NCBI GenBank assembly: GCA_027484985.1
Contig: JAIXRW010000025.1
Span: forward strand, 62,001 to 126,000
Length of the DNA stretch: 64,000 bases
Origin: Rhodobacter sp.
GTDB taxonomy: Bacteria > Pseudomonadota > Alphaproteobacteria > Rhodobacterales > Rhodobacteraceae
Direction of reading: 5' to 3'
In this document: positions 4,545 through 49,858 of the stretch, piece after piece
Layout: each line of letters opens with the position of its first letter
How positions within the stretch are numbered: position 1 is the first letter of the stretch
The notes under the pieces: generated by a model
What the model was told of the DNA's origin: nothing
What the model saw: the letters and a program-made list of their open reading frames with translations, nothing else
Database searches by the model: none
Position numbers and translations under genes: made by a program

Positions 4545-4657
4545 ACGATTTCTGACGCAGAAATCGTGGCGGAATTTGACGCAAATTCCGCCTGCCTCGA
4601 CGGACGGGCACCGTTTCCTGCGTCAGGAAACGGCGCGAAATCTGCGCCAGATTTCGC
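4545..4657. repeat. Array of four small hairpins with a GACGC/GCGTC loop (array 1)
   Basis: Four perfect inverted repeats, each with a 5-nt loop. 4545-4567: ACGATTTCT/AGAAATCGT, loop GACGC. 4568-4592: GGCGGAATTT/AAATTCCGCC, loop GACGC. 4611-4633: CCGTTTCCT/AGGAAACGG, loop GCGTC. 4635-4657: GCGAAATCT/AGATTTCGC, loop GCGCC. Stem sequences differ but every stem closes with T-A on the loop, and loop orientation flips halfway. The array fills the gap between the antitoxin and the pyrG stop, which are convergent. A second array lies at 48731-48891. Small ORFs called here are translations of the repeats. Confidence 0.85.
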
Positions 4658-4658
4658 T

Positions 4659-6302
4659 TCAGACCAGACGGCTGACATCAACCGCCGCACGCACGAAATC
4701 GGCAAAAAGCGGGTGGGGGGCGAAGGGTTTCGATTTCAGTTCGGGGTGGAACTGGACGCCGATGAACCACGGGTGATCCTTGACCTCGACGATCTCGGGC
4801 AGGCGGCCATCGGGGGACATGCCCGAGAAGATGAGGCCGCATTTTTCAAGGCGGTCGCGGTATTTGATGTCCACCTCGTAGCGGTGGCGGTGGCGTTCCT
4901 CGATGGTGGTGGTGCCGTAAACCGCGGCCACTTTGGAGCCTTGGGCGAGGCTGGCGGTATAGGCGCCGAGGCGCATGGTGCCGCCCTTGTCATCGGTCAG
5001 TTTGCGGGCGACGACATGGTTGCCCTGCACCCATTCCTTGAGGTGGTAAACCACGGGCGTGAAACGCTTTTCGCCGGCTTCCACATCAAATTCCTCGGAG
5101 CCTGCGTTCTGCATGCCCACAAGGTTGCGGGCGCTTTCGATGACGGCCATCTGCATGCCGAGGCAGATGCCCAAATAGGGGATTTTCTTTTCGCGGGCGA
5201 ATTGCGCGGCCTTGATCTTGCCTTCGGTGCCGCGTTCGCCAAAGCCGCCGGGGACGAGGATGGCGTGGAAGTTTTCAAGGTAGGGGGCGGGGTCTTCGCG
5301 TTCGAAGATTTCAGCGTCGATCCATTCGGCGCGGACGCGGGTGCGGTTGGCCATGCCGCCATGGGTGAGCGCCTCGGCGATGGATTTATAGGCGTCTTCC
5401 AGTTGGGTGTATTTGCCGACGATGGCCACGCGCACCTCGCCCTCGGCATGGACCAGACGGTCCATCACATCTTCCCAGCGGGTGAGGTTGGGTTTGGGGG
5501 CGGGGGTGATGCCGAAGGCATCGAGCACGGCCTGGTCGAGGCCTGCGCGATGATAGGCGAGGGGGGCTTCGTAGATGGTTTTCAGGTCATAGGCGGGGAT
5601 GACGCTGTCTTTGCGGACGTTGCAGAAGAGGGCGATCTTTTCCCGTTCGCGGTCGGGGATCGGGTGTTCGCTGCGGCAGACCAGCACATCGGGGGCGAGG
5701 CCGATGGATTGCAGTTCCTTGACGCTGTGCTGGGTGGGTTTGGTTTTCAACTCGCCGCTGGCCGAAAGGTAGGGCAGGAGCGTGAGGTGCATCAGGATGC
5801 TTTGCCCGCGCGGGCGTTCGTGGATGAACTGGCGGATGGCTTCAAAGAAGGGCAGGCCTTCGATATCGCCCACGGTGCCGCCGATTTCGCACAGCATGAA
5901 ATCAACCTCGGAATCGCCGATGCGGAGGAAGTCTTTGATTTCATTGGTGACGTGGGGAATGACCTGAATGGTCTTGCCGAGGTAGTCGCCGCGGCGTTCC
6001 TTTTCCAGCACGTTGGAATAGATGCGGCCGGACGAGATGCTGTCGGTGGTGCGGGCCGAAACCCCCGTGAAGCGTTCGTAATGGCCAAGGTCGAGGTCGG
6101 TTTCGGCGCCGTCATCGGTGACGAACACCTCGCCATGTTCGAAGGGCGACATCGTGCCGGGATCGACGTTGAGATAGGGATCAAGCTTGCGCAGGCGGAC
6201 GGTGTAGCCGCGCGCCTGTAGCAGGGCGCCCAAGGCCGCCGAGGCAAGGCCCTTGCCCAGCGAGGACACCACGCCGCCTGTGATGAAGATGTAGCGTGCC
6301 AT
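4659..6302 (-). CDS. pyrG: CTP synthase
   Basis: 547 residues, normal length. The N-terminal synthetase domain opens with [20 protein letters not shown] (P-loop) and contains [20 protein letters not shown]. The C-terminal class-I glutamine amidotransferase domain has the nucleophile elbow [12 protein letters not shown] and the [12 protein letters not shown] end with the catalytic His and Glu. It makes CTP from UTP, ATP and glutamine in the cytoplasm. The ATG at 6302 has GGGAG upstream. secG lies upstream on the same strand with a 161-bp gap. The 3' end abuts the hairpin array. Confidence 0.98.
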
Positions 6303-47998: not shown

Positions 47999-48724
47999 AT
48001 GACCTATTGCGTGGGGCTTTTGTTGAACGAGGGCATGGTGCTGTTGTCGGATACGCGCACCAATGCGGGGCTCGACAATATCTCGACCTATCGCAAGATG
48101 TTCACCTTTGAAGACCCGGGCGAGCGGGTGATCGCCATCATGACGGCGGGCAGCCTTTCGGTGACGCAGACCACCATCGCGCGGCTGCGCGAGGCGGTCG
48201 ATGACCCCGAGGCGAGCGAGGAAAGTTCGATCCTGAAGGCGCCGACAATGCTGAAAGTGGCCGATATGGTGGGCAACATGCTGTCGAAGGTGCGCGGCGA
48301 GATCGACACCAAGCTTGCGGCGATGGAACAGGGCGCGTCGGCATCGATGATCGTGGCGGGGCAGCGGCGGGGCGGCGCGATGCGGCTGTTCCTGATCTAC
48401 CCCGAGGGGAATTTCATCGAGGCGACCGAGGACACGCCGTTCTTGCAGATTGGCGAGCATAAATACGGCAAGCCGATTCTGGACCGTGTGGTGAAGCCCA
48501 CGACCAGTCTGGCAGACGCGCAGAAGGCGGTGCTGTTGTCGATGGATTCGACGCTGCGGTCGAACCTGTCGGTGGGTATGCCGCTGGATCTGGCGGTGAT
48601 CGAGCGCGATGCGCTGAAAGTTGGCGTCAAGCGGCGGATCGAGGCGGGGGACGCGCAGTTCCGCGCCATGTCGGAGGCGTGGTCAAAGGCGCTGCGCGAC
48701 GGGTTCCAGCAGATCAACATCTGA
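47999..48724 (+). CDS. Anbu (ancestral beta-subunit) proteasome-type peptidase
   Basis: 241 residues. After Met removal the chain starts with Thr1 (TYCVGLLLNEG), with Asp17 in LLSDTRTNAG and Lys32 in STYRKMF, the N-terminal-nucleophile triad of proteasome beta subunits. AIMTAGSLSVTQTTIARLRE and GKPILDRVVKPTTSLADAQK are family-conserved. Anbu forms open helical ring-like assemblies rather than closed barrels in studied bacteria. No proteasome ATPase or pupylation gene is present; the operon partners suggest it acts on peptides made by the ATP-grasp ligase. Confidence 0.93.
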   Translation: MTYCVGLLLNEGMVLLSDTRTNAGLDNISTYRKMFTFEDPGERVIAIMTAGSLSVTQTTIARLREAVDDPEASEESSILKAPTMLKVADMVGNMLSKVRGEIDTKLAAMEQGASASMIVAGQRRGGAMRLFLIYPEGNFIEATEDTPFLQIGEHKYGKPILDRVVKPTTSLADAQKAVLLSMDSTLRSNLSVGMPLDLAVIERDALKVGVKRRIEAGDAQFRAMSEAWSKALRDGFQQINI

Positions 48725-48730
48725 GGGCGG

Positions 48731-48891
48731 CGAAAGATCTTTTGAAGATTTTTCGCAAATTCCTCTTGAAGGAATTTGGGAGCGAAATCTGACGCAGATT
48801 TCGCGCCGGAATTTGACGCAAATTCCGGGGGCTGGCTGCGGGGTACGGAATTTGCGTCAAATTCCGTTGCGTTTTCTGCGTCAGAAAACGC
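48731..48891. repeat. Array of six small hairpins with GACGC/GCGTC (or TTGA) loops (array 2)
   Basis: Six consecutive inverted repeats with 5-nt loops. 48731-48755 CGAAAGATCT, loop TTTGA. 48756-48778 CAAATTCCT, loop CTTGA. 48782-48804 GCGAAATCT, loop GACGC. 48806-48828 CCGGAATTT, loop GACGC. 48845-48867 ACGGAATTT, loop GCGTC. 48869-48891 GCGTTTTCT, loop GCGTC. Stems are 9-10 bp and perfect apart from one G-T pair in the first. The array ends one base before the stop codon of the convergent hydrolase. It is the same family as 4545-4657, with GCGAAATCT and GGAATTT stems shared. Confidence 0.88.
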
Positions 48892-48892
48892 C

Positions 48893-49858
48893 CTAGCGAT
48901 GCGCGTCGAACAGCGTGGCCGCCGAGTCGAAGAAGCGGCGGCGGTGGGCTGCGGTTTCCATCATGATCTCGTGCTCGGCCCCTTGGTACAGGTCGAGGCG
49001 GCCGGTTTTCCAGCCTGCCATGCGCAGGTGGATCGGAATGGTATCGACCACCTTTTCGGCGGTGCCGAGGGCGGTCAGGCAGGGTGTGTCGGGGGCGGGA
49101 AGGGTTGACAGCGCGCCGCATTCGTTCAGGGCCGCCTTGACCCAGCCAAGGCTGGGGCCGCCAAGGCAGAGGTCGCGATGGGCGGCGACCTGGCGGCGCA
49201 TGTAGTCCCAGACCGTGTGATCGGTGGTCAGCACATTGCCCTGCGCGGGGCTGGTCAGCACATAGCTTTGTCCCGTTGTGCCGGGCGCATAGCGGAAGGT
49301 CTGGCGCAGGGGGCCGATCAGCGCCCCCATCGCGCCGGTGAAGGGGCGCAGCCAAGGCGCGAGGTGGATGCCCCACATCGGGGCCGAGAAGGCCACCGCC
49401 TTGACCGGAAAGCCGCGCATGAGGGCGCGCAAGCCGATGGCGCCGCCCATCGAATGGCACAAAAGGTAAAGCGGACGCGGCAGGTCGCTGTTTTCGGCCA
49501 CCGACACAAGGGCGGCAAGGTCGCGCTGGTATTCGTCGAAATGGCCGACATGGCCGATCATGCGGTCGGGATGGGCGCGCGCGGCGAGGCCCTGACCGCG
49601 AAAGTCGATGGCAAGGGTTGCATAGCCGCGCGCGCCCAATTCGGCGGCGGCGCGGCCGTATTTCTCGATATATTCGGTGCGGCCGGGAAGCAGCAGGACG
49701 GTGCCCTTGCTGCCTTGCGGCCAAAGGCCGATGCGGACCTGCACGCCGTCGGAGGTGGTGGCCCAGACCGCATGGCCCCCTGCCGGACCTTCGGCCACTT
49801 CGGCAAAGAAGGGCGCGGGTGGCAGGGCGGCGGTTGCGGTGCGGGCGGTCGCGGTCAT
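48893..49858 (-). CDS. Alpha/beta hydrolase (lysophospholipase/monoacylglycerol lipase type)
   Basis: 321 residues. Nucleophile elbow YLLCHSMGGAIGLRALM (GHSMG-like, here CHSMG), with IDFRGQGLAARAHPDRMIGH and the HFDEYQRDLAALV lid-side motif typical of the PldB/monoglyceride lipase group. The terminal EHEIMMETAAHRRRF supplies the His. Probably cytoplasmic; no signal peptide. Four-nt overlap with the upstream SCP2-like gene, so the two form an operon that may act on lipids. Confidence 0.88.
   Translation of the reverse strand: MTATARTATAALPPAPFFAEVAEGPAGGHAVWATTSDGVQVRIGLWPQGSKGTVLLLPGRTEYIEKYGRAAAELGARGYATLAIDFRGQGLAARAHPDRMIGHVGHFDEYQRDLAALVSVAENSDLPRPLYLLCHSMGGAIGLRALMRGFPVKAVAFSAPMWGIHLAPWLRPFTGAMGALIGPLRQTFRYAPGTTGQSYVLTSPAQGNVLTTDHTVWDYMRRQVAAHRDLCLGGPSLGWVKAALNECGALSTLPAPDTPCLTALGTAEKVVDTIPIHLRMAGWKTGRLDLYQGAEHEIMMETAAHRRRFFDSAATLFDAHR

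Follow-up and report, generated by a model that had tools for sequence, protein, structure and literature searches.

Intergenic stem-loops of bacteria in general are known to cluster at the 3' ends of genes (PMC1590033). Amongst the closest described elements are the CGTC REPs of alphaproteobacteria, which carry a terminal CGTC tag, a stem of 8-9 bp, a loop of 4-5 nt and a CCA tail, and which often occur as inverted dimers, lie for the most part between convergent or unidirectional genes and are often less than 20 bp from gene 3' ends (PMC3733652). The four-hairpin unit reported here shares with them the inverted arrangement of short alphaproteobacterial palindromes near gene 3' ends and the lack of a dedicated transposase; however, its CGTC spans the triloop of a perfect 10-bp stem instead of marking an end, there is no tag and no CCA tail, the loop is mostly of 3 nt, and each half contains two hairpins at a period of 24 nt. 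GTAG REPs, REPINs and BIMEs, which are linked to RAYT, are likewise multi-copy, dispersed and inverted extragenic palindromes whose ends sometimes provide a stop codon, but the unit has neither GTAG tag nor RAYT, consists of four hairpins and keeps its loop constant while its stems vary.

Two kinds of terminator are also comparable. Bidirectional intrinsic terminators of convergent genes similarly offer hairpins common to two facing genes; the unit, in contrast, lacks a U-tract on both strands and presents two hairpins per direction. Hairpin-cluster terminators are adjacent hairpins directly behind a stop codon, argued to terminate jointly (PMC8355165), and in M. smegmatis tandem hairpins can out-terminate single ones (PMC8355165). 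The unit resembles them in its adjacent hairpins close behind the stop codon, whereas those clusters are defined by prediction and have no common sequence, and the loop, period and inverted layout of the unit are fixed. Its REP-like placement is thus already known elsewhere, and the unit is a variant that differs in its tag-free, four-hairpin inverted layout. At the gathering threshold Rfam gave no match in the window (the whole stretch of 64,000 nucleotides that was analysed), and at relaxed thresholds nothing relevant, sub-threshold matches to microRNA families only. No description of the unit, of Tabrizicola repeats or of the core hairpin strings was found in the open-licence literature, and the unit may have been described before.

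A six-hairpin array between two convergent genes

The features of the array and its surroundings, in coordinates of the window, are as follows.

47999..48724, + strand: gene for an Anbu-type proteasome-like protein of 241 aa (Pfam Proteasome PF00227, E 8.8e-9), left convergent neighbour
48730..48756, + strand: hairpin 1, older class, loop TTG within CTTTTGAAG, 12 bp including one G.T
48756..48778, + strand: hairpin 2, older class, 9 bp, loop CTTGA
48782..48804, + strand: hairpin 3, GCGAAATC-TGACGCA-GATTTCGC, 10 bp, triloop ACG
48806..48828, + strand: hairpin 4, CCGGAATT-TGACGCA-AATTCCGG, 10 bp, triloop ACG
48829..48844, no strand: spacer of 16 nt without a T-run
48845..48867, - strand: hairpin 5, inverted form of the hairpin 3/4 design, ACGGAATTTGCGTCAAATTCCGT on the + strand, loop TGCGTCA
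48869..48891, - strand: hairpin 6, inverted form of the hairpin 3/4 design, GCGTTTTCTGCGTCAGAAAACGC on the + strand, loop TGCGTCA
48893..49858, - strand: alpha/beta hydrolase gene, 321 aa (Pfam Hydrolase_4, E 2.4e-34), right convergent neighbour
4546..4657, no strand: array 1, second copy of the four-hairpin unit in the window (covariance model R1)

All six hairpins proposed in the first-pass annotation are present, the array starting at 48730 and not at 48731. Its location between convergent genes also holds: the Anbu stop is at 48724, and a single base separates the hydrolase stop (48893) from the end of the four-hairpin unit (48891). The array at 48730-48891 is confirmed to be far beyond chance expectation. 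Adjacent perfect hairpin pairs number five in the window and none in five shuffles of it or after one shuffling of 515 kb from related loci, and the fold of the array region has a z of -11.9 as RNA and -11.7 as DNA. Array 1 is flanked by a + strand gene on one side and CTP synthase (4659-6302, - strand) on the other. The name Anbu comes from the first-pass annotation; no Anbu-specific model matched the product of 47999..48724, its Pfam match being Proteasome, and the name agrees with the adjoining Alpha-E and transglutaminase genes.

The last four hairpins constitute one unit of 110 bp, in which a hairpin pair is followed by the 16-nt spacer and by a pair of the same design in inverted orientation; hairpins 3 and 4 score 76.1 bits with covariance model R1 and hairpins 5 and 6 score 70.1 bits on the - strand. 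Each half-unit contains two 23-nt hairpins at a period of 24 nt, each with the loop TGACGCA, a 10-bp stem and an ACG triloop. Across 85 units the spacer has a modal length of 16-17 nt, and units both start and finish with the pattern xCG...CGx. Amongst copies the loop, spanned by CGTC, is constant and the stems are variable. Because these four hairpins form a single inverted unit, GACGC and GCGTC, earlier taken for separate loop classes, are one loop seen from opposite strands, and the distinction is given up. The first two hairpins belong to a different class (CTTGA-type) and represent an older element, found alone in relatives.

A few departures from this design were also seen. The loop variant TCACGAA/TTCGTAA, whose closing pair is no longer G-C, recurs (L218, L216, L223, L226, L260; G062) and usually keeps the central ACG/CGT, hinting that the triloop may be the recognised part. 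Expanded units with extra halves, partly tandem repeats, are found at L191 (G000:C28:10035-10367), L228 and L252, suggesting local duplication of half-units.

Copy number, taxonomic range and position relative to genes

Covariance model R1, which describes a single half, detected 57 sense half-units in this draft genome, nearly all of them intergenic and nearly all in pairs of + followed by -, which corresponds to ~28 full units sharing order and spacing. The unit is present in all 19 genomes of the genus, with 1 to 98 halves each. We take the genus as Tabrizicola, as one member (G067) and Tabrizicola sp. TH137 have identical Anbu genes; other members may be named otherwise. Strict matches (E <= 1e-8) occur in 4 of the 297 sampled genera of the family, this genus included, and in a further genus the layout recurs around a different loop. 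Matches in other genera, weaker ones included, show a paired and partly inverted layout with the loops GGCGC, CGACGCG and TGACGCA; in one genome (G009) the GGCGC-loop pattern occurs 223 times against 44 in the reversed control (~5x), and L110 and Pseudogemmobacter have adjacent hairpin pairs with still other loops. The layout is therefore more widely distributed than the loop. A plasmid collection queried with the unit gave no match. In the sister genome G062, all the matches listed with R1 are on the 3.69-Mb main contig and none on the other three contigs, which suggests that the unit is absent from its plasmids.

Placement was examined for 85 complete units from three genomes, those studied in depth, using a self-trained Markov gene caller of our own that was correct at both junctions in the window; the context is ambiguous for nine units. 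The median distance from a unit to the adjacent gene end is 4 nt for 3' ends and 71 nt for 5' ends. Gaps with a unit comprise 34 convergent, 41 tandem and 6 divergent cases, as against 26, 94 and 56 amongst gaps of at least 60 bp without one, so that units are enriched in convergent gaps (P = 5e-6) and depleted in divergent gaps (P = 8e-6). Of the 39 units compared in tandem gaps, 36 are closer to the 3' end of the upstream gene (P = 4e-8), and for ten genes the TGA of the first loop is itself the stop codon. Arrays located inside genes or at random, which would have spoken against a role at gene ends, are thus not what is seen. Of the roles put forward earlier, a block acting in both directions at gene 3' ends agrees with these genome-wide positions.

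Inheritance and stem variation

Units are old, and inheritance at a fixed place is the rule, with gains and losses besides. G062, with a DNA identity of ~82%, carries a unit in the corresponding position for 23 of this genome's 29 loci, and orthologous matches were likewise seen for five or six out of 22 examined G072 loci. Three G062 units were traced in this genome: one corresponds to a partly deleted unit, whose spacer and right half are gone through an internal deletion, and two are without a clean empty site. The proposal that units are copied and shuffled can be retained in part; their places are fixed, and orthologous stems differ by paired substitutions with occasional larger changes.

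At the Anbu/hydrolase junction itself, the four-hairpin unit is carried only by this genome and by G062, the closest relative, and 16 of 18 genus members are without it; hence it is not essential there. Several relatives (L173, L174, L175, L177) carry the older hairpin pair alone, the array being therefore the older pair plus a later 110-bp unit, and some have no hairpins. Hairpin 1 keeps its class and position in relatives without the unit, and counterparts of hairpin 2 are seen in L173-L175 and L177. No clear target-site duplication, a MITE criterion, was found at this junction, the single filled/empty junction compared. The G062 copy of the unit here (L245) is interrupted by ~100 bp similar to part of the Anbu gene's coding sequence, which would seem to have been duplicated locally into the space between the halves. 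The older hairpin class, with CTTNNAAG-type centres (e.g. CAAAAATCTTCGAAGATTTTTGCAAATTTCTTCGAAGAAATTTG), is located at gene 3' ends (window 48730-48778; L173, L174, L175, L177; L262 3966-4013) and apparently extends across several genera.

Amongst 125 distinct halves, standard pairs make up 97% of the pair cells. Stem changes are two-sided in 470 cells, as against a single one-sided change within the nine inner pairs per stem, and between orthologous units 114 inner pairs are compensated and 14 broken, several of the latter belonging to the TCACGAA loop variant. G-U pairs are scarce, which implies either a part for both strands or arms kept matched by hairpin-templated correction.

Candidate roles of the unit

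As pairing is kept while stem letters change, the unit is probably a working two-way end-of-gene signal. Its architecture, copy numbers, position bias, conservation of structure and inheritance in place are strongly established; termination, protection and any factor involved are what we infer. The reading we put first, at a little under an even chance, is a dispersed, mostly vertically inherited, two-way, non-canonical 3'-end module, which would act by Rho-type termination and/or by blocking exonucleases. According to this reading, polymerase coming from either gene would meet two perfect 10-bp ACG-triloop hairpins, usually a few bases past the stop codon, and would next transcribe the T-poor spacer. 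Transcription may then end in or just past the spacer through the hairpin pair together with Rho or another factor, and not through a U-tract, and the pair could subsequently shield the mRNA 3' end against exonucleases. The inverted second half would serve the facing gene likewise, keeping convergent transcripts apart; at the Anbu/hydrolase junction such a unit would have been gained beside an older hairpin pair.

Observations on the sequence behind the hairpins and on the two halves bear on this module. After the second hairpin there is a mean of 1.0 T in 8 nt, with ~70% C at the fourth and eighth bases. Genes ending 16-400 nt from a unit have a T-tailed terminator of their own in 11 of 33 cases against 3 of 33 in the reversed control; for those directly next to a unit the figures are 15 and 18 of 76, without any excess, and this contrast speaks for the module. 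A generic terminator scan gave no more matches than in its shuffles. In tandem gaps the half facing away from gene ends keeps 18.95 of 20 pairs, against 19.21 in the near half and a further comparison value of 19.44, and such near-equal upkeep is not required by a role in RNA for one gene only. Perfect halves number 29 of 39 for away-facing halves in tandem gaps and 65 of 68 in convergent units (P = 0.004), a mild relaxation which fits with some directional use.

An alternative that we regard as possible, if doubtful, is a site acting at the level of DNA, double-stranded or extruded as hairpins, with, for example, a topoisomerase or a nucleoid protein binding to it in convergent gaps. Supercoils gather between convergent genes, and a DNA-level role has been proposed for BIMEs. 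The enrichment in convergent gaps, the symmetric design, the upkeep of both halves regardless of gene direction and, in the inner pairs, the lone one-sided change beside hundreds of two-sided ones, as though each strand counted, are all in keeping with such a site, and the near absence of G-U pairs is also compatible with maintenance at the DNA level. However, binding to double-stranded DNA does not need stem complementarity with freely varying letters, and supercoiling does not explain the 0-12 nt spacing to stop codons in tandem gaps.

Another alternative, to which we give the same somewhat low probability, is a neutral or selfish REP- or MITE-like palindromic repeat with no role for the host, which would survive next to stop codons since insertions elsewhere do harm, and whose arms would be matched by hairpin-templated replication errors. 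It would account for the gain and loss evident from the absence of the unit at the Anbu junction in most relatives, for the ten genes terminating at the loop TGA, for the unit without spacer and right half, and for a placement that REPs of other bacteria share (PMC3733652). Nevertheless, most units are orthologously placed with full structure, which is not obviously expected of a decaying neutral repeat, and the earlier suggestion of a REP mobilised by RAYT fails, as the Y1 transposase (Y1_Tnp, PF01797) exceeds the cut-off in 0 of 19 genus genomes while positive controls were found.

A more specific form of the 3'-end module is unlikely but can be stated: a dedicated termination or 3'-end factor would read the RCG triloop of the paired hairpins as a second, U-tract-free signal, arranged in inverted double pairs, with a loop that drifted between genera. 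Ordinary intrinsic (Rho-independent) terminators agree with the stable hairpins and their location behind stop codons, but they are rejected as highly improbable since the 10 nt that follow the second hairpin contain at least five T in only 2 of 170 halves.

The ending of transcripts without clear U-tracts is poorly mapped in high-GC alphaproteobacteria. With its fixed inverted layout, constant loop and varying yet complementary stems, the unit is a clear, testable candidate for transcript ending, and the ~28 copies permit genome-wide tests. Additionally, because single-sided stem changes are so rare, the unit is a natural test case for whether perfect palindromes persist through selection or through hairpin-templated correction.
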